Source: Clitopilus passeckerianus (lineage: Eukaryota > Basidiomycota > Agaricomycetes > Agaricales > Entolomataceae). Taken from it: a stretch of 64,000 nt of DNA. Of the stretch, positions 1 to 63,935 are shown one piece after another. Every line of letters begins with the position of its first letter. Within the stretch, counting starts at the first letter, position 1. A model generated the notes under the pieces. It saw nothing but the letters and a program-made list of their open reading frames with translations. It was not told where the DNA came from and searched no databases. The position numbers and the translations under genes were made by a program. The stretch covers positions 366,205 to 430,204 of the forward strand of contig CALYLX010000036.1 in NCBI GenBank assembly GCA_944990035.1. Direction: 5' to 3'.

Positions 1-2262
1 TGCATAAGTTCGACAGATTCACTTACTTGCTGAAGACGCGAGACCGGGGAGACGTGGTCAGGAGCCCTGTGCATTATTCCGACAGATTCACTTACTCGCT
101 GAAGACGCGATAGCGGGCAGACGTGGTCAGGAGGCCTGTGCATAATTTCGACAGATTCACTTACTTGCTGAAGACGCGATAGCGGGCAGACGTGGTCAGG
201 AGTCCTGTGCATAATTTCGACAGATTCACTCACCCACTGAAGACGCGAGAGCGGGCCGACGTGGTCAGGAGTCCTGTGCGTAATTTCGACAGGTTCACTC
301 ACCCACTGAAGACGCGAGAGCGGGCAGACGTGGTCAGGAGTCCTGTGCATAATTTCGACAGATTCACTTACTTCCTGATGACGCGAGAGCGGGCAGACGT
401 GGTCAGGAGGCCCGGGCATAATTTCGACAGATTTCACTTACCACCTGAAGACGCGAGACCGGGGAGACGTGGTCAGGGGTCCCGGGCGCAATTTCGACAG
501 ATTTCACTTACTCGCTGAAGACGCGAGAGCGGGCAGACCTGGTCAGGAGTGCTGTGCATTATTTCGACAGATTCACTTACATCCTGCAGACGCGAGACCG
601 GGCAGACGTGGTCAGGAGTGCTGTGCATAATTTCGACAGATTCACTTACTTGCTGAAGACGCGAGAGCGGGCAGACGTGGTCAGGAGTCCTGTGCATAAT
701 TTCGACAGGTTCACTCACCCACTGAAGACGCGAGAGCGGGCAGACGTGGTCAGGAGTCCTGTGCATAATTTCGACACATTCACTTACATCCTACAGACGC
801 GAGAGCGGGCAGATGTGGTCAGGAGTCCTGTGCAAAATTTCGACGGATTCACTTACTTCCTGATGACGCGAGACCGGGGAGACGTGGTCAGGGGTCCCGG
901 GCATAATTTCGACAGATTTCACTTACCAACTGAAGACGCGAGAGCGGGCAGACGTGGTCAGGAGTCCTGTGCATAATTTCGACAGATTTACTTACTCGCT
1001 GAAGACGCGGTAGCGGGCAGACGTGGTCAGGAGTCCTGTGCATAATTTCGACAGATTCACTTACTTGCTGAGGACGCGAGACCGGGCAGACGTGGTCAGG
1101 AGTCCTGTGCATAATTTCGACAGATGCACTTACCACCTGCAGACGCGAGACCGGGCAGACGTGGTCAGGAGTGCTGTGCATTATTTCGACAGATTCACTT
1201 ACTTCCTGAAGATGCGAGACCGGGCAGACGTGGTCAGGAGTCCTGTGCATTATTTCGACAGATTCACTTACTCGCTGAAGACGCGAGACCGGGCAGACGT
1301 GGTCAGGAGTCCTGTGCATAATTTCGACAGATTCACTTACTTCCTGAAGATGCGAGAGCGGGCAGACGTGGTCAGGAGTCCTGTGCATAATTTCGACAGA
1401 TTCACTTACGAACTGAAGACGCGAGAGCGGGCAGACGTGGTCAGGAGTCCTGTGCATAATTTCGACAGATTCACTTACTTGCTGAAGACGCGTGACCGGG
1501 CAGACGTGGTCAGGAGCCCTGTGCATAATTTCGACAGATTCACTTACCACCTGATGACGCGAGACCGGGCAGACGTGGTCAGGAGTGCTGTGCATAATTT
1601 CGACAGGTTCACTCACCCACTGAAGACGCGAGAGCGGGCAGACGTGGTCAGGAGTCCTGTGCATAATTTCGACAGATTCACTTACATCCTGCAGACGCGA
1701 GAGCGGGCAGACGTGGTCAGGAGTCCTGTGCACAATTTCGACACATTCACTTACTTCCTGATGACGCGAGACCGGGGAGACGTGGTCAGGGGTCCCGGGC
1801 ATAATTTCGACAGATTTCACTTACCACCTGAAGACGCGAGAGCGGGCAGACGTGGTCAGGAGTCCTGTGCATAATTTCGACAGATTCACTTACTTGCTGA
1901 AGACGCGTGACCGGGCAGACGTGGTCAGGAGTCCTGTGCATAATTTCGACAGATTTACTTACTCGCTGAAGACGCGATAGCGGGCAGACGTGGTCAGGAG
2001 TCCTGTGCATAATTTCGACAGATTCACTTACTTGCTGAAGACGCGAGAGCGGGCAGACGTGGTCAGGAGCCCTGTGCATAATTTCGACTGATTCACTTAC
2101 CACCTGAAGACGCGAGACCGGGCAGACCTGGTCAGGAGTCCTGTGCATAATTTCGACAGATTTACTTACTCGCTGAAGACGCGAGACCGGGCAGACGTGG
2201 TCAGGAATCCTGCGCATAATTTCGACAGATTCACTTACCAACTGAAGACGCGATAGCGGGCA
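1..2262 (-). repeat. Tandem array of about 33 intron-like 69-70 bp units with a hypervariable triplet
   Basis: Unit length is 69 bp in 28 intervals and 70 bp in four (372-442, 442-512, 857-927, 1755-1825). Read on the minus strand, each unit has GTAAGT (29 of 33) or GTGAGT (4 of 33), an invariant CTGAC about 30 nt before the acceptor, a pyrimidine-rich stretch, CAG (32 of 33) or TAG (one, at 791-793), then a free triplet. Lowest plus-strand coordinate and minus-strand triplet: 2239 TTG, 2170 CGA, 2101 GTG, 2032 CAA, 1963 CGA, 1894 CAA, 1825 GTG, 1755 GAA, 1686 GAT, 1617 TGG, 1548 GTG, 1479 CAA, 1410 TTC, 1341 GAA, 1272 CGA, 1203 GAA, 1134 GTG, 1065 CAA, 996 CGA, 927 TTG, 857 GAA, 788 GAT, 719 TGG, 650 CAA, 581 GAT, 512 CGA, 442 GTG, 372 GAA, 303 TGG, 234 TGG, 165 CAA, 96 CGA, 27 CAA. 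The last donor, 26-21, opens an intron leaving the window. Confidence 0.95.
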
Positions 2263-2897
2263 TGAGTGGTTAGCAGATTATTCTTCAATTACGGCAGAGG
2301 ACGTACATCCTAATTGATTTTTCGTAACATATACCATTAACACTCTTCCCAATCGAGAACTCAACCTACATCCTGTGTATATATATCAACCTCGCATGAT
2401 CCTCCGTGCATTTCCGGCCATTACTTACTTGCTTTTAACGTACGACATATCAGCGTCAGAACGTTGCTCCAACTGTCAGCAGCGATATAACACTTGCCCA
2501 CTTGAAAATCACCCGCAACCAAAGCATGGATCTCGTTGGCACAGTTCGTATAGACAGAGCTCGAATCAGCTCCTCACATTCTGGTGTAAATCATTGGACG
2601 ATCGTTAGGCGGCTCTCGTTGCTGCGTGAATCAGGATTACTTACAAACTGTGTAAGGAGCCATGTTCCATGGTCAAAAGTCTCGTTCAAATATGCCTTCA
2701 GACCACCCACTTGTGTTTTCTTTCAACCGGGTACGTCGATGAGAGAGTCGTTATGGGTGACAGGTTTCGGCTACCTACCCAGGTTGAACCTTCTTTATCT
2801 CCAGACTGAACCGATATCTCAGCACGGAAGCACCAGAAGTCGTCGAGGTACGTACCGTTTCGTGGTCGGAAGAGGGAGTGTATTCGGTTCCAGACAT
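1..2897 (-). CDS. Single-codon-exon gene: two 5' exons followed by at least 40 three-nucleotide exons (partial, runs off the left edge)
   Basis: Predicted from splice signals only. Exon 1 is 2897-2856 (ATG, 14 codons, after a CT-rich leader). Exon 2 is 2805-2779 (9 codons), flanked by GTACGT and GTAGGT donors. Then come 3-nt exons, each bounded by AG on one side and a donor on the other. The first seven lie at 2707-2709 (TGG), 2645-2647 (TTT), 2578-2580 (AAT), 2498-2500 (TGG), 2429-2431 (CAA), 2370-2372 (GAT) and 2307-2309 (GAT). The next 33 are in the tandem array, 2239-2241 to 27-29. Every exon is phase 0 and no stop arises. Introns are 50-77 nt. Residues are W, F, N, Q, D, L, R, V and E, with a hydrophobic stripe typical of an amphipathic helix. 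I know no family with this structure. The first microexon has a weak donor (GTGGTC) and one intron is GC-AG. Function unknown; the 3' end lies outside the window. Confidence 0.72.
2242..2778 (-). other. Diverged upstream introns separating single-codon exons
   Basis: Eight introns between exon 2 and the array share no obvious sequence with the 69 bp unit but keep its geometry. Coordinates and lengths: 2778-2710 (69), 2706-2648 (59), 2644-2581 (64), 2577-2501 (77), 2497-2432 (66, GCAAGT donor), 2428-2373 (56), 2369-2310 (60), 2306-2242 (65). Donors are GTAGGT, GTGGTC, GTAAGT, GTGAGG, GCAAGT, GTAAGT, GTAGGT and GTACGT. Good branch-site candidates include CTAAC in the third and in the last intron and CTGAC in the fifth. 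Exactly three bases separate each acceptor from the next donor. The 2428-2373 intron still resembles the array unit just after its donor, so it may be an older relative of the amplified intron. Confidence 0.7.
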
Positions 2898-6278: not shown

Positions 6279-8919
6279 ATGCGGCTGATACCGCTCTCTG
6301 CTTTTCTCGTCTCGATTGCTCTGGCTGGCACCTCCTTCGCCGACTCACCAGCTGGAGCAGGAGGAACCGGTGGTAGTGGTGGCCTATACCCACCAGGCCT
6401 GCAACCACTCATAAACCGCGCCAACGCCCTCCTAACTGTGGGCCAATTCGCAGATGCAGCACGGCTGTACACCGAAGCTATCGAATCTTCACCTACAGAC
6501 TACGTGCTGTACTACAAACGCGCCACGGCGTACTTCTCCCTGCAGCGGCACAATTCTGCGTTGGAGGACTTCGACAAGGTCCTAGAGTTGACGAGAGGGA
6601 CGTTTGATGGTGCCAACTTGATGCGTGCGAAGGTGGGGTTGAGGGAGGGGAATTGGGAGTTGGTTAGGGGTGCGTTGGAGGGGTATAAGAAGGGACATAC
6701 GTTCAAGACGAACAAGGATGGGAAGGCTGCGAGGGAGGTTGGAGAATTGGAGGAGGAGTTAGGGGTGGGCGAGAGGATGGAGGGGAAGATGGGGAAAGAG
6801 AGAAGTGCGGGGTTGTGGACTGCTTGCGTGGAGAGTGCGAGTGCGGCGTTGAGGGTTGCGAGTCATAGTGTTGAGATTAGGAGTGTTAGAGCCGAGTGTG
6901 AGATTGGGAGTGGGGATGTTGAGGGTGCGGTTGGGGATTTGACGTAGGTTCCTTTTCTATCTATTTGATGGGTATGTTTTTGACGACGTCATCATACAGT
7001 CGACTAGGTCACCTTCTACCACCATCGACGACCCTGCACACCACCATCTTCCGCCTCTCGTACTTCCTCCTCCAATCTCCCACCTCACCTTCTACGACGC
7101 CACTCTCCACACTCAAACAATGCCTCCACTTCGACCCAGACTCAAAACCCTGCCTCTCCCTCCGCCGCTTATACAAAACCTTCGACAAGCAATTCATCCA
7201 ACTCGAGGACCTCAAATCCAAAGAAGACTGGCGCGCTATCATCAAGCTCGTTTCTCCCTCCACCTCCGCCGGGAAAAAGGGAGACCTCCTAGGACGGTTC
7301 GACGAAGCGTTGAAAGAACACACCTCCAGGACGAACCTCCTACCACCCCAACTCCAATCCTCCAAAACCCTCCCAGAACTACCCCTCCCCGACCCATTCC
7401 TCACTTCCCCCCTCCGTCAAGCCCTCGTTCGGTCTTTGTGTGTCGCATATACGCACCTAGCGGCTCCGCCGCCTGGGAGTCAGGATCAGCCGAGTAAGGG
7501 GACGGGGATGAAGAAGGAGATGGAGAGGTGGTGTGAGGAGTTGGCGAAGATTGATCAGGGGGATGTGGATGCGCTTGTGGGGATGGGTGAGGCGGCGTTG
7601 GGGAAGGAGGAGTGGGAGGAGGGGGCGAGGTTGTTGCAGAAGGCTTGGGAGGGGTGTGGGCAGAGTAGGAGGGATGTGAGTATGCGTTTCGTTCTCCCGC
7701 CTAGAGATGCTTTTGGGGCCCTTTCGAGAGGGCTAGGGTCTCTAACGGAGTCCTGCCCTCATCGTTGCTTCTCTCTTCCCGCTTATTCCTCCTGCATTTG
7801 AACCCAAACTGACACCATACGTTCTACAGATCCACTCCCGCCTCAACCGCGCCCAGAAGCTCCTCAAGCAGAGCAGGGCGAAGGACTACTACAAGGTGTT
7901 GGGTGTTAGCCGGGATGCGGATGAGAGGACTATTAAGAAGGCTTTGTACGTTTCTTTTCTTCGTCGTTGTTTCCCCGTTGTTTCTTCTCTCTTTTCGCTC
8001 GCTCCTTTCTCGCTTTTTGGTTTCGTTCTGTGGCGTTTTTCGTTCTCTTCGTCTTTTCCTCGCGCCTTGGATGTTTCGGTTCTCCCGCTCCTGGCCTCGT
8101 ATCCCATGTGTTACGACGAAATTTGGGTTCTCGTTTCCCTCGGGGTACGGGATGGCATTCGTGGACTTATGTCTGCTCCTTTCTTGATGATTCCTACTTC
8201 CTATTCCTTCACTCATCTTATCCCGTTCTTCTCCGACTCGCGTTTTCAATCTTTGAGCTCGAGAGTTCCGAGTCGTCGGCGTAATGGCACCTGGTTGACC
8301 TAGTGGTCTTTCGTTGCGACGAAACCGCGGTATCTGAGATTCCTTTCGGGAATTAGGATGGTTGACAGGCGCGATGTCGTGTCTGCTTTCTTCCTGCCTC
8401 TTCTTTTCGGTCTTTCGTCTCCACCGTGCGGCTATCACCCAAGGGATAGATCCTCACCCTTGGATGGTCCTCGTCGGTGACGCCTGTGGTTGCTGCTATT
8501 CCTTCCGTGCTTTTCTACCTTTATCTTTCCTCCACTTCATCGTTTCTTATCCCTTCCTTAATCTTTGTTCTTGTTTCCTATCCTTTCCTATCCTTAACCG
8601 TCACGAACCTCATACTAACCACCCTCCCTCCCTCTCTCGCAGCCGTCAAGCAGCCAAAACTGCCCACCCCGACAAAGGCGGCTCCGAAGCCAAGATGGCC
8701 ACCGTCAACGAAGCCTACGAGGTCCTCTCGAACCCTGAGCTTAGGCAGAGATTCGATAACGGAGACGACCCGAACGATCCGATGGCGCAGCAGGGTGGGC
8801 CGGGAGGGTTTTACCAACCTGGTGGAGGCTACCCTGGTGGGCATCCGTTTGCGCAATTCTTCCAGCAGGGAGGACATCCGGGTGGGAGTGGGGGGTTCCA
8901 GTTCCATTATGGACGGTGA
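6279..8919 (+). CDS. ER-lumenal TPR-DnaJ co-chaperone, DNAJC3/P58IPK-like
   Basis: Four exons: 6279-6943, 7000-7675, 7830-7945 and 8643-8919, about 577 residues, close to the family's usual size. The N-terminus is a hydrophobic signal peptide (about residues 1-22) followed by a Gly-rich segment. TPR-like helices follow (NRANALLTVGQFADAARLYT and similar), then a C-terminal J domain (DYYKVLGVSRDADERTIKKA, with the HPD tripeptide in TAHPDKGG) and a Gly/Pro/Gln-rich tail. Proteins of this architecture bind unfolded clients in the endoplasmic reticulum and stimulate the Hsp70 BiP/Kar2 through HPD. The J domain is split by an unusually long 697 nt intron just before the HPD loop; the other introns are 56 and 154 nt. 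Frames join cleanly at all three junctions. No canonical ER-retention tetrapeptide is visible (the protein ends FQFHYGR). Confidence 0.9.
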
Positions 8920-10854: not shown

Positions 10855-13800
10855 ATGGCCGACATAGACGACTCTATCTTAAATGAGTTTAGCTGGGAAG
10901 CCTACAATTCCACACCAAGCGCCTTCAAACCTCAGATAGCAAGCCTTCTTCTCATGCAGATCGTTACGAGATCAAAGGATCAGCTAAACGAGGAATACAC
11001 TCAGTGGCAGAAATGCTCCGAACTACTGACCACAGATGAAGATTTTCGACGTCTATTATTGAACTGTTGGAAGCAAGGTTCATTCGACAGAGTTCGTGAC
11101 TCCGGTATGTGGGCTGCACCTTCGTCATGGACTTATAGGCAATTATTGATTCTTCTGTGTAGAGATACTGCGGAAGCCCTCGGGTAAGAACGGTATGAAT
11201 CTTCGCCAAGGACAGCTAAACTGACACTTATGAAGACGAAACGACACCAGAAGCGCCCACCACGATTAATCACTATGGTTCTACAATTACGGAGGTTCAT
11301 GGAGATGCGTACACCTGCACATGTGAGGCCTCGTTCAGGGAAATTCCTTCGGATGAACTAAAGAACGCCAACAGATAACTATTATCCCAGTAAGCCCACT
11401 CAGTTCGACCTTCAACCCGATCAGGGAATTGAGCGGTTCCACAGACGGAGGAAGCTACGTTGGGAATTGGTTCTCTGATACCGACTACGGCCGCATTCAG
11501 AGAGACTCGTACTCCAAACGAGTTGAAGGGACAGGAGACTGGTTTCTTGGCTCTCGTAATCTTGAAGAATGGTTGAAGGATGACAGGAAACGTGTCCTTT
11601 GGTGCACCGGAATGCGTGAGCGGCACTTCTTCGATTCATGCCTCCCTGTTCTTACCTCGAGCTTCCCTAGCTGGAGTTGGCAAGACAGTCATATCGTGAG
11701 CCTTTTCCAAATCGGCACAACCTCCACACATTTATCGACTGATCGAACCCAGATCGATCACTGTCCGTCACCTCGAGAAGCGCGGCCATGTCCCGGTGTG
11801 CTTTGTTTACTTGAACTATAAGAATCGGCAGAAGCAATCGTTGGCTCATATCATCGGAAGCATTCTGCGGCAGCTGTACGAGCGATACGCACCCTCTCGG
11901 GAAGCTCTTGATAGCTTTTACAATCAACACTACCCCGCTTGCTCCCATCCAACCCTGGGCGACTTCATGAATATTTTCGCGATGGCCACTCAAGGAATCC
12001 ACCAGATCTATGTAGTCATCGATGCACTCGACGAGTACCTTGAACCGTACTCTGATGATGCGGTGGAAGCATTACGCGACTCTCTTCTGGGTATTCCGAA
12101 CCTGAAGCTTATGGTGACCTCTCGGATAATCGGTCATATGAAACGCATCTTCAGCGATTCAGAAACTGTCCACCAAGAGATACAGACCACCGACGAGGAC
12201 ATAGAAAGATATCTGAGCCATCGAATATCTACCGAACTCTCGCGTAGCTTTCAATCGGGGATGGAAGAAACAATTATTACGCACATAAAGGAATCTGCTA
12301 AACAACGGTAAAGTCAATTCAATCTCGTTAGGAGGCTGCCACGCTGACAAAGCCAGCTTTTTGTTGGCGAGGCTGCATATGGACTCCGTCTCTAGTCGAC
12401 TCACAGTCGGCGAGATTCGAGATACCCTGGCATCTTTGTCAGAAGAGGTGGACCAGGTTTATCAGCAGGCGGTATATAGGATTGCAGAGCAAGGGGAGCG
12501 CCATCGACAACTTGCTCATGAAATTCTAACCTGGGTGGCTTGTACACGGAAAAACTTGACCCTAGTTCAGCTACAACACGCCCTTGCTGCTACTCCTGGA
12601 CGACGGACCGTTCATGAATACCTCTACTCCGAGGAGCTTATCACTTCTGTCTGCGCTGGACTGGTCGTATTCAATGAGCAGTTGGGTCTGGTCCAATTCG
12701 TTCGTATGTGACTTCTTGCAATGCCATAACCCTGGCTAAGCATACTTTACACAGACCACACCACACAAGAATTCTTCGAGAGGACCAGGGAGGTATACTT
12801 CCCGAAGGCTGACCTAGTGATAACACAAGCCTGCTTCAGGTACCTGGCACTCGACGATATATTCGACCTTCAAGAGAAAATGGTTTCTAAAGCCTACACA
12901 TCCATCGATCGCCTTCCTCTAATTCGGTACATGGCAGAGCACTTTGAGTCTCATCTTAAGCCGTGTCAGGATGACCTTCCGCAGCTATTAAGCCCCTATC
13001 TTGATCGAGGCGTCCAATTAATGGTTACTTTGTGCGCCGGCAGCGGACACATTGCTCTCGAAGATTGGCAGTACCACGAGTGGAGTGATTCCCATTTTGC
13101 CGCCACTATGAATCTTCCTATCGCTCTCAAACACATCCTCAACAGGGGGGCTGGTGCGGATATCCGTGAAGACTACTCTCAATTCACTCCCCTCACCTGT
13201 GCCGTTCGGGTTGGGGCCATCGACTCTACTCGTTATCTCTTGAGTCTAGACTCAATTGAGGTAAATACTCCCGACGCTGACGGAAACTCGCCTTTGGCAA
13301 TTGCCTCGCGCCACGGCAATCTTGACATCGTCAACATCCTTTTGGAGAACGAGAAGGTAGACGTTAACTCCAGTAATAAAAACGGGTCTACCCCTCTTCA
13401 TATGGCGGTCTCTTATGGCCAGGTCAACATCGTGAAGGTCTTGCTGGGAAGAGATGGTGTAAATGTCAACGCCTCCAATAACCTCCGTCGCACTCCATTG
13501 TTTCATGCTGTCCAGTATCGCCAACGAGAGATTATCTCCATTCTCATCGAGGATCCCCGCGTGGAATGTACTCATGTTGACGGTAAAGGCTTGACACCTC
13601 TTGGTTTAGCCATAGCTGAGGGCAACGAGACAATCCTCGACCTCCTCCTCATTCGGGACTCTCTCGATCCCGATTTTCGAGACAAATCCGGACGAACACT
13701 ACTTTCATGGGCAGCCGGAAACGGAATGACTAGTACAGCTAGACAGATCATACGTGCGGCTCCCTGCAAGGCGGACCTCCCCGATAACGATGGCCGAACC

Positions 13801-14153
13801 CCGCTCTCTTACGCAGCAGATGGGCTGCATTTAGAGATAGTCAAACCGCTCCTAGAAATCCCCGGTATTGACGTAAATTCAAGAGATTCAGATGGGTACA
13901 CACCACTGATCTATGCGTCGAGGTCTGGGTGGAACTCAGAACATACCGTTGGCGCCCTTATCGCCATGGGTGCTAGCCCCGATCTGCCAGAGAAATCTGG
14001 CCGAACCCCTCTGTCATTTGCTGCGGAACGTGGGGCAGAGCATACCGTCAACTCCCTTCTTCGAACCAACGCAGTGAACATAGCGTCCGAAGACACAGAG
14101 GGTAGAACACCCCTTTCTCACGCAATCACGGCGACATCGGCCTGCACAATATC

Positions 14154-15481
14154 GAGGAGTCCGTGTAGCTGTTTTGTAATACGTCCAGCATTTGGTGGAA
14201 AAAGGCGTTATAGTATGGCCTGCTGAGCTTGAATCAGGTTCTGTATTATAATGCACCTAGGACTGTTGCCCCCGCGCATCGACGGATTACAATGCCGATG
14301 GCCAGGTTTTGAGTGCATTATAATTCACGTCGCAAGCGGCACCGTTCGTATTCTCATAATATAGTGGACGAGGCATTAAGCAAAGGCCTTGTGGCTTAAC
14401 GGTTTTGTCGCGGGAGACCATTTTTGGGCTTGAGGGTTCGATTCCCCGTAGTTGCAACTTTTTCTTCCTATTTTTCTTCCTTGTTCATGAGGCTGAGCGA
14501 TCTGTCTCAGAAACGGAAGGATTACGAGCGCTCGAGGGCATTGTATTTCTACATATAACTACTGTAGGAACGGCGGGGAAATCACATTTGTTCTTGGACA
14601 TTCGAAACGTACTGCCTACGGCACAATGACTACATTCATTCGCACAGACGGCCAACGAGGATGCGGAAAAGCGACAAGTAATGAGTAAAGGTAGTGAGTA
14701 GCATTAATACCTCCATTAACTGCCCTTGGAATATTTTCTGTCTTTTGGATGGTGGAGTTCAGCTTCGAGGGTTACTTTGACCACAGAATGTATAGAAAAC
14801 CCTACCGATCTTTCGAGCATCGTCTGACTTTTTCAAATTCGCAGATTTGGCTGCGGTAAGGGCTAAATGACAGTGTACATATGTTATATGGTTGTAATAC
14901 TGATATACGGTCGGCCTAAATTGAATATTTAGAGCTGGACAGGCAATACAATCTGACTGAGATTTCGTTTGACGTCGGAGTCCACCGGAGTGACATTTTC
15001 TACTGATTGGCCATGCGGCAAGGCTCAGCCGCTCGTTGTGCGGCCAATAGGCTTGTGTCTGGCATCTGCGATCAAGCGGGAGCTCAATTCTGTCCCAGTG
15101 TGCCGCGCCTCCGTTCTCATTCTAAAGACGTAGAAAGCTTACAATAGTACAATTTCGAGGTAATCTGGAACGCATGATAGCGTATTATGAATGGAAGCAA
15201 ACTGCAAAATTTTGAATTTCTCGGTGGTCGGCTCGTACGGTCCGGTTCATATTCCTGCCCCCGCGATGCCTTATAATGCATTGCAAGCATTCGGCTGCAT
15301 TATAATAGGTTTACCCCGGCGGAGAGCTCCAATTTAGGCTCACAGACAGCAGTTATAATACGTATTTGACGTAGCTACATATTGAAGATACATTATAATT
15401 CCCAACAACGGCTGCAAATACTATAACACCTTTTTCCACCAATTGCTGGGCCATATTACAACGTGACTACACGTACTGTTG
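14154..15481. mobile_element. TIR DNA transposon (non-autonomous, hAT-like by duplication size) inside the ankyrin exon
   Basis: The ends are imperfect inverted repeats of about 60 bp. The left end includes AGTCCGTGTAG and GCATTTGGTGGAAAAAGG. The right end, reverse-complemented, includes AGTACGTGTAG and GCAATTGGTGGAAAAAGG. Direct repeats CAATATC flank it (14147-14153 and 15482-15488), extendable to 8 bp with one mismatch. Copies of a CATTATAAT-like motif cluster near both ends (for example near 14240, 14315, 15270, 15300 and 15395), and TGCCCCCGCG occurs in both arms. No transposase ORF is present. The host reading frame is the same on both sides because element plus duplication is 1335 bp, a multiple of three. 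Confidence 0.8.
14385..14463 (+). other. tRNA-like Pol III promoter unit (SINE head or tRNA relic) within the transposon
   Basis: An A-box match TGGCTTAACGG (14392-14402) and a perfect B-box GGTTCGATTCC (14435-14445) are correctly ordered and followed by T-rich terminator-like runs from about 14459. The sequence does not fold into a full tRNA: the T-stem keeps only about three pairs and the acceptor ends do not match. I read it as a tRNA-derived relic rather than a functional tRNA. Confidence 0.45.
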
Positions 15482-16658
15482 CAATATCCCTTCTTATCCA
15501 GAACGGTGCTCCCCTTGATATTAGAGATAATAGGGGCAGGACTCCTTTATTCCATGCAGTCGAGAGATGGTATACTTCCGCTGCGTTGATCGAGACTCTT
15601 CTGGATGCGGGTGCGGCGGTCGATGCTCGGGACCACGAAGGATATACACCACTTTTGGCTGCCATTCAGTCCGAACATTCGGGGAGCATAGAGGTGCTGC
15701 TGCAACATGGGGCAGACCTGGAAGGGAAGCAGGGAGGCGATAAGACGACACCACTCTGCGCTGCCATCCGATCTAAGAACCAGCGGATCGTAGAATCGCT
15801 TCTGAAGCATGGAGCAGATTGGAATAACTGCGATGGGCAAGGTCGAACACCATTGTGGCATGCAGCCAACGGAGGTTCGCTTGGGCCTCTAGTGTTAGCT
15901 TTGGATAAACTTCGAGATATCAACTCCCCCGACGAAGATGGTGTAACGCCGTTGATGAAGGCAGCCAATAAAGGGAATGAATGGCTTGTCGACGTCCTAA
16001 TCAAGAACGGCGCCAATCCCAGTGTCAAGGACAGGAATGGCCGATCCGCATTCCATTACGTCGCCGGATTCCGTGATCCTGACGAGGAAAGTCAGGAATG
16101 GTGGGCTAGCGAGCTGTATACCAGTGCCGCCCTTAGACTACTCGAGGCAGGGGCCGATATCAATGACCGAGACAGTGGGGAGCTGACACCTCTTGATCAT
16201 TGCGAGAACGAGGTCATCGTGGAATTCCTTGAGGCGCACGGCGCGATGCGTTCTCGCCCCAAAGCACAGAAGTCGATTCCAGAATCGGGGACGGATTAGA
16301 TCTGCGATTCGGATGAAGTGATACTAAACAGCTAAAAGAAGGTAAGTATTGCCCAATTGATTTGGCGTACTCTGGCTTAATGAGCTGCAGGATGTATATT
16401 TATTCCATAGGGAGAGGAGAAGAGTTCTTGTTTGTACAAGCCAAGTACGCAACAGTATACTGTCGAAGGTGTCGTCACGTATGGTTATAGTAAACGTCAT
16501 CTGAGGATACGTAAATGATGGTTTGTAGCGAATGATACGTTGCTTTATTATGTGAATGGCGAAAAGAGGGGTTCGTCGCGATCAATATTGTACGTATATG
16601 TAGAGGAAGAATAAAGATACAGGAGCAATGGTTTTAGGACGATTGGTTCCGGAAAATA

Positions 16659-20705: not shown

Positions 20706-23700
20706 ATGCCAGATGGCGGAAGATTTGAAGAATTCTCATGGAGTGATTATAGGAATACCCCGGCATCGTTCAAGCGAATACTCTAGGCTTGTTTACTCAG
20801 TGATGTTATTCGACGATCTCCGGATGTCCACCTTGATCAAGAGTATCTCGACTGGAGAAGATGTCTCCAGTTACTTGCCTCGATTAATGACCTCCGTACT
20901 CTGCTCTTGAAGTGCTGGGAACTGGACTGTTTTGAAGACCTGTGTAAATCTTGTAAGAGTACCGAAGAAATCACCCTCTCCAAAGCTCACCCTTCTTCAC
21001 CAGCGTACTTACAAGAAAGAAGCGGAGGTGCCTGCCACAAGGCAGAAAGCGTAAGTTCTAAAATGCAGTAGAGGAGATGCTTAGGTGACGTTTATTCCTC
21101 ATAGCATTTCTCCGATTACTCCAACTCCCGCTTCACTGAGGTCCACGGTGATTCGTACACCTGTGAGTCAATCGTATCAGGAATTCATGTCTTGACTAAA
21201 GGTGCGACAATTTCATAGATAATATAACCTCCGGTAGGTTTATACCACTGTTCAAGATCATCAAAAGTCTGATCATCTACTCAGCGGCCGACAAGGACAA
21301 GATCAAGGAGTGGCTTTGCGGCTATGATTACGTCCCAATACAGAAGGAAACCTTCCTAAAGCGGTGTAACCACACGGGAGACTGGTTTCTGAAATCTTCG
21401 GCGGCCAAAGTGTGGGTGGAAGAAAAGGAGAGAAGAATTATCTGGTGTCCTGGCATTCGTAAGTTTGTCCGAGGCATCGGTCAAGAAAGTCACTCACGTC
21501 GTCACAGCTGGCGTAGGAAAAACAGTTATCTCGTAGGTCGTCCTCGATGCATCATCTTCGCGTTATTCTGAGTAGCCTCGAAGTTCTGTGGTTGTGGACC
21601 ACTTACAGCGCCAGCAGCAACTCCCTGTCTGCTTTATATACTTCAATTACAAGCGCCAGGCAGACCAGAACGAATGCCATGTCTTTGGATCCATCCTCAG
21701 GCAACTTTGCGAAGATTCACGAGCGTTTCAGGTCATCTACGAATACCACTCGTCTACGAGGAGCGCGTCGGCTCTTGTCGGAACACAACTTCATGCCGTG
21801 CTAGGCTCGGCAATTCGACAATCTGGAGGGGCATTTGTTATACTGGATGCCCTTGACGAGTACCTCCTGAACTACTCTGATAAAGCTATTCGACTGCTCG
21901 TTCAGATGCTCCTATCGATTTCTGACCTGAAGTTAATGGTTACGTCGCGTACCATAGGGTCAATGGAATCAATTTTCTTGAATGCTGGTGCAATGATCAT
22001 TTCAATCCATAGCGCTTCAGCCGATATGGAATCCTACATTCGTGGTCGCATTCAGAAGGAGGTTCCATTTGCCGCAAGAATCTCCGATTTGGTTGTGGCT
22101 AAAGTGATGGAAGCATCAAAGGAGCGGTACGCGCGGTTTCCTGAACCACCATGCCCATATTTGATAGTGATCCGGTTCAGATTCCTTTTAGCAGAGCTAC
22201 ATATGAATTCCATTGGAAGCCTGTTGAACATTGGCCAAATTCGGCGTACGCTGGATAGCCTGGCTAAAGAGATTGACCCAGCCTACCTACAAACCATACG
22301 AAGGATCAAAGAACAAGACGAACACCGCCGGGATCTTACCTTGAAAACATTGATGCTGGTCACAACAACATTCCGTAGCTTGTCTGTCGAGGAGGTCACC
22401 CATGCATTGTCAATTGGTCCCGATCGAGACTCCGATTTAGAGGATTATCTTTACCCTGCCGATATTATAACTGCAGCATGCGCGGGTCTGGTTGTCATCA
22501 ACTCGAAAACGAATCAAGTGCACCTCATCCGTGAGTTTTGCGAGTATTTCGGTTTGTCCTATCCTGAGAAGTTCTTCATCGTACAGACATGACGGCTCAG
22601 ACTTTCTCCGAGCGGATTAGAGAATCCGAATTCCCGTCTGCTGACTACACACTGGTCAATATGTTCGCGATTTACCTTTCTTGGCCGGTACCACAACTAC
22701 CCATGCACCTGGCAGACCAGGGGTTTGGGTTAATTGTTGCCTTTTACCGACCGCTCTCTAGATATATACAAGAACACTTCCATCACCATCTCCAAAAGGC
22801 TGAACAGGAAATATTTCCTGGTTTTCATTCTGTCCAAGATTTGGCAATTGCAGAGCCAATATATCCCGCTATCTCTCGGCTCCTTACTCAGTCAACGCTG
22901 ACGGGGTATAACACGGACGTTACCAATATGTTCGGCAACGGGATAGGGTCATGGAAAGTCGACCATAACTTCGATGCCATATGGATCGCATTAACGCTGG
23001 ACCTTCCCCACCTCTTAACAATCCTGCTTCAGTCAGGAACCGACCCCAATATGTCTCTCGGTATTCAGCATCTTTCCCCACTTTCAATCGCCATTTGGTG
23101 CGGTTCGAGGAACTGCATCGATCTGCTTCTCGCGAACCCCGGAATTAAGGCGGATCTAGAGTCTCAAACCGGCCTGACGCCTCTGTCAGTGGCAGTCATC
23201 AAGGGGAATGTGGAGGCCGTCAGGCGCCTCTTATGTCGCTGCGATGTAGACGCCAATCGCCCCGTCCTAGGAGGATTTACTCCGTTGATGCTTGCTGCCT
23301 CAAGACGCAATGAGGATATCGTTTGCGAACTGTTGATGAAGGATAACATAAACCTCAACGCAAAGCATCCCGAGGACAGTTTTACGGCACTTTGGCTAGC
23401 AATATACAACAAAAGAACTTCGGCAGTCTCTGCTCTAGTGGCCGACAATCGCCTAGACTACGCAGGAGAGGTCATCCCAGACCAAACTCCTCTGACGTAC
23501 GCAATTCTCATGGGGAATGCGCCAATCACCTCCATATTACTACAGAAGGAACACCCCAGTCCTAGTTTTCGAGATGACGGTAGAACCCTGCTCTCCTATG
23601 CCGTTGAAGGGGAGATGGAGTCAGTCGTGGCAACGCTAATAGAGCTTGCGCCTGAACTCGTGGATCTCCCTGACGATGCTGGCCGCACCCCCCTGTCGTA

Positions 23701-24544
23701 CTGCAGGAATCCGAATATGGTCCGACTCTTACTCAACACTGGAAAAGTTCGAACGGACCACCCGGATATTGAGGCCCGTACCCCACTCTCGTATATCGCA
23801 GCGCCTGAATGTTGGATGTCCAAGGATATGTCATGTCAGATGGTCGACTTACTCCTGGAAAGGGGATCCGTAAAGGCAGACTCACGCGACAAGTGGGGAC
23901 GAACTCCCCTCTCATACGCTGCCGAAAGCGGAAGCGTCAAGATTGTAGAAAGGTTGATCCAGGTGAACGGTGTTGATATTAACTCCTTGGACAACGAAGG
24001 CCGACCTCCCTTGTTTCATGCCCTTTTAAGCGACCATACGAAAATGGCAGCAATGTTGCAATCTCTTGGTGCATCAACAAGTATAATCGACGGGAAGGGG
24101 AGAGGGTATGAATGGTATTTGGAGTACTCTGACATCTATTATGGCCAGTGCGACTGGGATATGGACGTGTCAAAGAGATCTGACGACGGCAGGACCGTTT
24201 TATCAAGGGAAGCGGAGGGGGGGAACGTGCAGGGCGTAATCCGTCTCTTGAAAAAAGGGGCTGACCCAAATTCCAGAGATGATTCGGGACGAACACCAAT
24301 CTCATGGGCAGCGGAGACCTCTATGAAAGGTCCATGGGTTCTCCAACACCTTCACACCATAAGTGCTCTACTGGACGCTGGAGCAGATATCAACGAGGAA
24401 GACGACGAAGGTTCGACACCTTTGGATCATGCAGAGTCAGAAGAGATCATGGTCTTATTCGAGATGCGTGGTGGGATACGGAAAGGTGGCAGAGATAAGC
24501 TCAATACCACTATTCTGGCTAAAGGCGGCACTCATCATTGGTAG
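20706..24544 (+). pseudogene. NACHT-like NTPase/ankyrin-repeat NLR-like gene 2 with an early in-frame stop
   Basis: A diverged paralog of the gene at 10855-16299, with the same exon plan. The start at 20706 gives an N-terminus aligning with copy 1 (EFSWSDYRNTPASFK against EFSWEAYNSTPSAFK). Codon 27 is TAG (20784-20786), in frame with homologous sequence on both sides. After it come a 25 nt exon with the P-loop (GVGKTVIS, 21508-21532), CFIYFNYKRQ, Walker B VILDALDEY near 21840-21865, LMVTSR, an intron at about 22127-22180, another at about 22531-22587, and a long exon of ankyrin repeats to the stop at 24544. Apart from codon 27, everything splices in frame. A start downstream of the stop would lose part of the N-terminal region only, so an NTPase-ankyrin product remains possible. 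Confidence 0.8.
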
Positions 24545-63808: not shown

Positions 63809-63935
63809 GGTTTAGGGTTTAGGGTTTAGGGTTTAGGGTTTAGGGTTTAGGGTTTAGGGTTTAGGGTTTAGGGTTTAGGGTTTAGGGTTTAGGGTTTAGG
63901 GTTTAGGGTTTAGGGTTTAGGGTTTAGGGTTTAGG
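63809..63935 (+). repeat. Telomere-type (TTTAGGG)n tract, about 18 copies
   Basis: An almost perfect run of the heptamer TTTAGGG on the plus strand. The G-rich strand points rightward, as expected for a right-hand chromosome end. It is followed by 65 bp of unrelated sequence (63936-64000), so in this assembly it is interstitial or just inside the end. Confidence 0.95.

Follow-up and report, generated by a model that had tools for sequence, protein, structure and literature searches.

How much of a protein can a gene spell out one codon at a time? The question is raised by a window of 64,000 nucleotides from Clitopilus passeckerianus (the whole stretch analysed here, C36:366205–430204 of a 64.8 Mb assembly in 160 contigs), at the beginning of which the strict motif AG-NNN-GT[AG]NGT occurs 37 times on the minus strand (window 29–2647), mostly at a step of 69 nt. 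Two more units belong to the same chain and have deviant donors, GTGAGG next to the triplet AAT and GCAAGT next to TGG; both are also present in the C34 haplotype of the locus and in the paralog C36b. A first-pass annotation had listed 40 triplet junctions here: the minus-strand series stands, and the number is corrected to 39 in the window. Eight others lie on C36 to the left of the window edge, giving 47 predicted single-codon exons in the entire gene, every one in phase 0 and none a stop codon, and the predicted introns measure 56–77 nt; phase, openness and spacer range all agree with that annotation. We regard it as very probable that the array is the N-terminal coding part of a HET gene, composed of 47 consecutive predicted one-codon exons that are likely spliced intron by intron, the product being a putative HET cell-death sensor.

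The exons were predicted with an unbiased intron chain, which applies generic donor, branch and acceptor preferences and does not favour any exon length. Within the window gene, 47 of 53 internal exons came out at 3 nt, and the shares at eight other loci were 57/61, 76/84, 94/112, 68/95, 18/36, 70/95, 86/100 and 47/75. Reversed sequence gave 0–3 exons of this length and the opposite strand 0–5. Throughout the rest of the window (32 four-kb tiles, both strands), only 10 of 864 internal exons were 3 nt long and the longest chain of them was 4. Several exons of other lengths inside the arrays coincide with a GC or weak donor beside a triplet. The chains at 18 loci contain 866 triplets (an approximate figure, as they include a few likely spurious end triplets, e.g. 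a W before F-N-W in the window gene) and no stop at all, for which the naive probability is 9e-19, the units not being independent; triplet chains in the reversed and opposite-strand controls were at most 8 long. When the units of the window gene are compared column by column, variation in the triplet reaches 0.55–0.63 against a mean of 0.064 and a maximum of 0.50 in intron columns.

The array of the window gene leads into a 535-codon open frame that contains a HET domain (PF06985; 40.4 bits against a Pfam cut-off of 22.5, E 4.9e-10), and the HET exon matches this domain alone, with no NACHT, ankyrin or other domain match. The layout downstream of the start runs, often by way of F-(N/D)-W, through the array to a last triplet CGG, AGG, AGA or GAA, then to a 16-nt exon, entered at phase 0 and left at phase 1, and finally to the HET exon. 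A 16-nt middle exon connects array and HET in frame and without a stop in 17/17 loci (next best length, 5/17), in a search whose limits were set after the outcome of an initial run with free middle-exon length, which had picked 16 nt in 8/17 loci, and after GC donors had been noted by eye. The HET exon had to start no more than 45 nt from a conserved motif, intron lengths were confined to a narrower range, both introns had to reach a minimum score and the donor floor was relaxed; the loci are 17 of the first 18 HET loci, C34b being excluded for a HET frame broken upstream. GC-AG introns follow the 16-nt exon in all eight of the window gene, C34a, C36b and the C97 and C157 loci, and they follow the TGG of F-N-W in the window gene, C34a and C36b, each of which has one GC donor in its array. 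At 6 of the 17 loci no ATG stands ahead of the conserved LPIYLL segment in the open HET frame, so translation there must enter from upstream exons. A start could be placed in seven loci (the window gene or C36a, C34a, C36b, C155_1, C155_4, C106_1 and C106_4), always as an ATG exon followed by a 27-nt and a 9-nt exon, and the proteins predicted in this way have 588 aa in the window gene, 592 aa in C34a and 632 aa in C155_1. For both the HET exon and a peroxidase, the best relatives that carry a name are Agaricales: Flammula alnicola (55%), followed by Tephrocybe, Arthromyces, Termitomyces and others at about 50%. The HET genes of F. alnicola concerned, BDZ97DRAFT_1166513 and 1166094, show 55% and 52% identity. 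No HET relatives were found among viral contigs.

The same organization recurs across the genome. A genome-wide Pfam profile search found 18 HET places above cut-off, and each is preceded, on its own strand, by an array of 3-nt exons that comprises between 12 and 97 triplets. A protein search recovered additional HET loci, of which four were examined and three (C155:304192, C101 and C98) carry arrays, so that arrays are found at 21 of 22 HET loci examined (HET matches on C113 and C26 lie outside this count). The longest, C155_1, has about 95 predicted single codons in series. We also searched the genome for the pattern AGNNNGTAAGT-spacer-AGNNNGTAAGT, with counts that are lower bounds. With spacers of 50–80 nt there were at least 111 matches, 111/111 (47/47 + 64/64) falling within the stretches around the 18 HET open reading frames (ORFs); with spacers of 34–54 nt there were at least 151, and 144 (105/111 + 39/40) fell within those stretches. 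Reversed-pattern controls gave 11 and 6 matches, and 6 matches were counted under both spacer patterns. Of the 7 outside, one among the matches listed (C101:377865) lies upstream of the HET gene on C101, itself array-bearing. The main intron size is 66 nt in C34, C36, C157_1, C157_2 and C97_1, 50 nt in most C106 and C155 arrays, and mixed in the others. The C97_1 array (C97 ~355200–353600) has a gap between two single-codon runs at a place where the C157 haplotype is continuous, perhaps the result of an insertion.

The strongest case that small predicted exons are kept as codons while introns drift is a pair of HET loci, C101:377000–382300 and C98:376400–381400, which are 94% identical and were taken as haplotypes. 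In this paralog the upstream coding part is split up into exons that measure 3, 6, 9, 12 or a few more nt, and the introns between them are mutually dissimilar. All 63 exons of 3–12 nt could be mapped between the two copies, 53 of them single codons and 62 with boundaries predicted independently in both. Only 1 of 246 exon nucleotides differs, synonymously, against 220 of 3227 (6.8%) in intron interiors (p 2e-6); donors differ at 16/408 positions and acceptors at 3/201. The C101 introns are barely more alike than shuffled ones (mean score -4.5 vs -5.4; the C155_1 values are 14.7 vs -3.3) and no tandem repeat of 50–70 nt was found at the locus (377000–382300), so repeat structure cannot explain the AG-NNN-GT layout there. 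This pair may reflect intron gain between codons and not duplication of units.

Three more pairs were compared: C97_3/C157_3, C106_4/C155_4 and the last 37 codons of C97_1/C157_1, a stretch that is the matching array end as picked by a script, which favours similarity. Differences affected 9/360 triplet nucleotides, 11/351 in acceptors, 37/702 in donors and 572/6283 in intron interiors (Fisher p against interiors: triplets 1e-6, acceptors 3e-5, donors 4e-4), and seven of the changed codons were synonymous and two were not. In C97_3/C157_3 and C106_4/C155_4 alone, 5 of 83 codons changed, all synonymously. Comparisons between non-allelic paralogs show many residue differences and were not used as evidence.

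At the window locus itself, contig C34 holds the counterpart of C36 with nearly identical flanks, the window peroxidase ORF is 92% identical at C34:25966, and telomere repeats stand at matching ends of both contigs, from which we infer that the two are haplotypes. The C34a array has 57 codons, the window array 47, and their order differs. Introns resemble those of their own allele more than those of the other: 77.7 of the 85 units of C36a and C34a have their nearest intron within one allele (42.3 expected), as in concerted evolution of repeats, and identical introns adjoin different triplets in the comparison between them. Together these two observations suggest exchange of units inside each array. 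Irregular first and last exons aside, both arrays use one codon per amino acid (R CGA, E GAA, Q CAA, V GTG, L TTG, W TGG, D GAT, F TTC), which looks as if a few founder units had been copied.

The window gene is laid out as follows, all on the minus strand. Exon 1 (2856–2897; 42 nt) begins with the ATG, encodes MSGTEYTPSSDHET and is kept in the C34 haplotype, with donor GTACGT here and GTAGGT in C34. Exon 2 (2779–2805; 27 nt, SGDKEGSTW), obtained from the unbiased intron chain, and exon 3 (2711–2719; 9 nt, KTQ) have counterparts of the same length at the same place in six loci (C34a, C36b, C155_1, C155_4, C106_1 and C106_4). The single-codon exons F-N-W (TTT 2647, AAT 2580, TGG 2500) and their introns follow at 2498–2647; F-N-W is also found in C34a and C36b, and F-D-W in C155_1, C157_1–3 and C97_3. 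Thirty-six more single-codon exons, separated by introns of 56–67 nt, extend from CAA 2431 to CAA 29 (27–2431), 33 of them within the regular 69-nt tandem array (2241 to 29; 32.8 copies, 89% matches). After CAA 29 an intron starts (1–26) and the gene leaves the window, to continue with eight single-codon exons at C36:366164–365682, the 16-nt exon at C36:365625–365610 and the HET exon at C36:365550–364022. The first-pass annotation had placed two normal exons before the array with the ATG at 2897; exon 1 was correctly delimited, and both the 27- and the 9-nt exon precede the array in addition to it. Its central idea, a coding region cut into single codons, is borne out, for a splicing pattern read from DNA, by the family-wide structure, the frame and the conservation at codon level. 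The extension of that idea to a whole coding region is too broad: the array contributes only 47 of 588 predicted residues, the remainder coming from about 510 codons of the HET exon and from short exons.

Could the same DNA be explained without one-codon exons? If the 66-nt 'introns' were read through as 22 codons, the gene would encode a conventional tandem-repeat protein with a 23-residue repeat and one variable residue. Many introns would permit it, being multiples of 3 without an in-frame stop (34/47 in the window gene, 46/57 in C34a), and ORFs of up to 310 aa do cross part of the window array. However, 10 of the 47 introns in the window gene have a length not divisible by 3 and stops occur in 3, nearly all introns of the paralogs with introns of about 50 nt break the frame (87/96 in C155_1 and 70/71 in C155_2 are not multiples of 3), and in other paralogs the frame is broken, stops counted, by roughly half of the introns or more (39/79 in C36b, 53/87 in C157_1), while the triplets stay open. 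Splice sites are, moreover, better kept between haplotypes than intron interiors. We rejected this explanation, which we hold to be extremely improbable, on the intron lengths and stops, on the non-repetitive C101/C98 pair and on a unit that is not open and in frame across the family. Scarcely any more credible, and rejected on the same intron lengths and stops and the same non-repetitive pair, is a non-coding minisatellite or 5' regulatory stretch in front of a HET protein that begins at an internal ATG. It would agree with the 69-nt tandem repeat of the window array, which alone could account for the regular spacing at this locus, and with the ATG that precedes LPIYLL in the open HET frame at 11 of 17 loci. 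The repeat could not account for C101, where the same kind of layout exists without one and where the comparison with C98 gave 1/246 exon bases against 6.8% in intron interiors; six of the 17 loci have no such ATG, the 866 triplets are free of stops and the frame joins HET in 17/17.

The remaining alternatives accept the exons and differ in what becomes of them. Ancestral single-codon exons might now be incompletely spliced and the HET genes silent relics, for which one could point to 3 of 18 HET frames that are broken or short (C34b, C97_1 and C106_5) and to the interrupted array of C97_1. Yet 15 of 18 HET frames are open across 512–561 codons, and both splice sites and codons are constrained between haplotypes; general decay seems to us very unlikely. 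A less remote option, still doubtful in our opinion, is that the triplets act as cassette exons, with alternative inclusion of frame-neutral subsets generating many N-terminal variants from one gene. Since all array exons are in phase 0 any subset would keep the frame, and the NACHT-ANK genes of Tuber melanosporum offer a precedent in the available text of PMC9815663. The order and number of codons are nevertheless kept at C97_3/C157_3, C106_4/C155_4 and C101/C98, a better fit to a fixed product.

Several observations weigh against a HET sensor whose N-terminal part is spliced codon by codon. We infer the splicing, its order and its completeness from DNA and not from transcripts. Across seven diverged arrays, only 251 of the 496 introns contain the branch motif CTRAY (shuffled sequence would give 71.6), and the C13 HET locus has no array within 3.9 kb. 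Besides the three HET frames that are broken or short, the Pfam match of the window gene spans only profile positions 36–91 of 146. Constraint on the codons is not uniform either: the full 54-codon alignment of C97_1/C157_1, one member of which combines its interrupted array with a broken HET frame, has 10 non-synonymous and 2 synonymous changes, C34b and C36b differ at 11/25 residues, and the 47 aligned residues of C36a and C34a comprise 25 identical and 22 different ones with no purely synonymous change, a difference due to the reshuffling of units that should not be taken for a dN/dS. Helical amphipathicity of the residue order was detected in only 1 of 15 arrays (the window gene, p 0.02), so we make no claim that arrays encode amphipathic helices, and the predicted N-terminal segment of C155_1 had no relative at E <= 10 (107 candidates). 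The proposed role in recognition derives from the domain and the allelic difference, and it is weakened by the small fraction of HET genes that act in allorecognition, as far as the accessible text of PMC10197012 goes.

With one-codon exons as the preferred interpretation, the protein would grow by one residue per splicing event. With short introns whose splice sites leave just 3 nt between them, simultaneous removal of neighbours is unlikely; intron definition with ordered removal, likely 5' to 3', would keep the upstream exon always long. Unequal exchange between near-identical introns would add, delete or swap single codons without shifting the frame, and would explain how window-gene alleles with near-identical flanks come to have different arrays (47 vs 57 codons). 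The HET part would trigger fungal cell death, and the N-terminal stretch would evolve fast and serve a self/non-self sensor for recognition or oligomerisation. According to the portions available of PMC10197012, HET suffices for cell death and is often found in allorecognition.

Elsewhere in the window, an ORF with NPHP3_N (NACHT-like) and, after it, one with ankyrin repeats (21588–24544) likely make up an NLR gene near the telomere and the HET gene; no chain of more than four 3-nt exons was found there in the tiles covering the rest of the window. More ankyrin-repeat ORFs and a TPR ORF lie at 12817–14226, 15463–16299 and 6279–6947. The telomere repeat at the contig ends is the 7-mer TTTAGGG (window 63809–63935, C36:430015–430133, C34:75–212), with 540 overlapping exact four-unit matches in the genome; the usual mushroom telomere repeat is TTAGGG.

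Rows of 3-bp exons as such are already known, and the description of a new kind of gene structure in the first-pass annotation cannot be maintained: dozens of them are reported for the NACHT-ANK (nank) genes of Tuber melanosporum in the accessible text of PMC9815663, PMC4986451, PMC10197012 and PMC3689799, the original description (Iotti et al. 2012) being known here through citing papers. As far as these sources go, the likeness lies in dozens of 3-bp exons (47 predicted in the window gene) within a fungal family tied to non-self recognition. The truffle genes, however, are ascomycete NACHT-ANK NLRs with mini-exons in the C-terminal recognition part and reported alternative splicing, whereas those described here are HET-domain genes of an Agaricales-like genome, with neither NACHT nor ankyrin matching the HET exon of the window gene, with the array N-terminal to HET and with splicing predicted from DNA. 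Isolated microexons are also too short for exon definition, whether in plants, animals or Phanerochaete; judging by the available text, the Arabidopsis APC11 gene has a 1-nt exon for which intron definition and stepwise removal were proposed (PMC4674806), and the P450 microexons of the basidiomycete Phanerochaete span 2–10 codons, the shortest being 6 bp (PMC1184071). Those accounts do not describe dozens of single codons in series, unlike the arrays found here. Fungal HET-domain genes at large (PF06985; examples in PMC10197012) share the domain, and no codon-sized exon array was found for them in the literature searched.

The hnwd-type genes of Podospora anserina combine HET, NACHT and WD repeats, a combination not seen in the window gene, where HET is the only match in the HET exon. 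Going by partial sources, hnwd/HET-E resembles the window gene in having a HET domain and near-identical repeats with few variable positions, and in diversifying its alleles by exchange within the array; the Podospora repeat, however, is a read-through protein module, and here it is an intron plus one codon, so that exchange would change one residue. In the literature searched, which left subscription journals and preprints mostly outside, arrays of 3-nt exons turned up neither for HET genes nor for any basidiomycete. As far as the searches show, what is new is the HET family, the Agaricales-like genome, the N-terminal position, the series of up to roughly 95 predicted codons and the conservation at codon level.

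Beyond the individual gene, we give about even chances to a broader proposal: that codon-by-codon architecture arose more than once in fungal immune genes, with introns serving as homologous spacers for one-residue, frame-safe recombination and a spliceosome that removes 40–100 of them in strict order, and that in the HET family it is old enough for the introns of C101/C98 to have become hardly alike while the codons were kept. Gene finders and read aligners readily overlook 3-nt exons, and annotations may therefore lack parts of fungal immune proteins. These loci offer a clean test of how the spliceosome handles dozens of serial 3-nt exons, and of whether introns act as recombination spacers in a recognition protein that evolves residue by residue. 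A second gene family with the truffle layout would point to repeated selection for this layout in non-self recognition.

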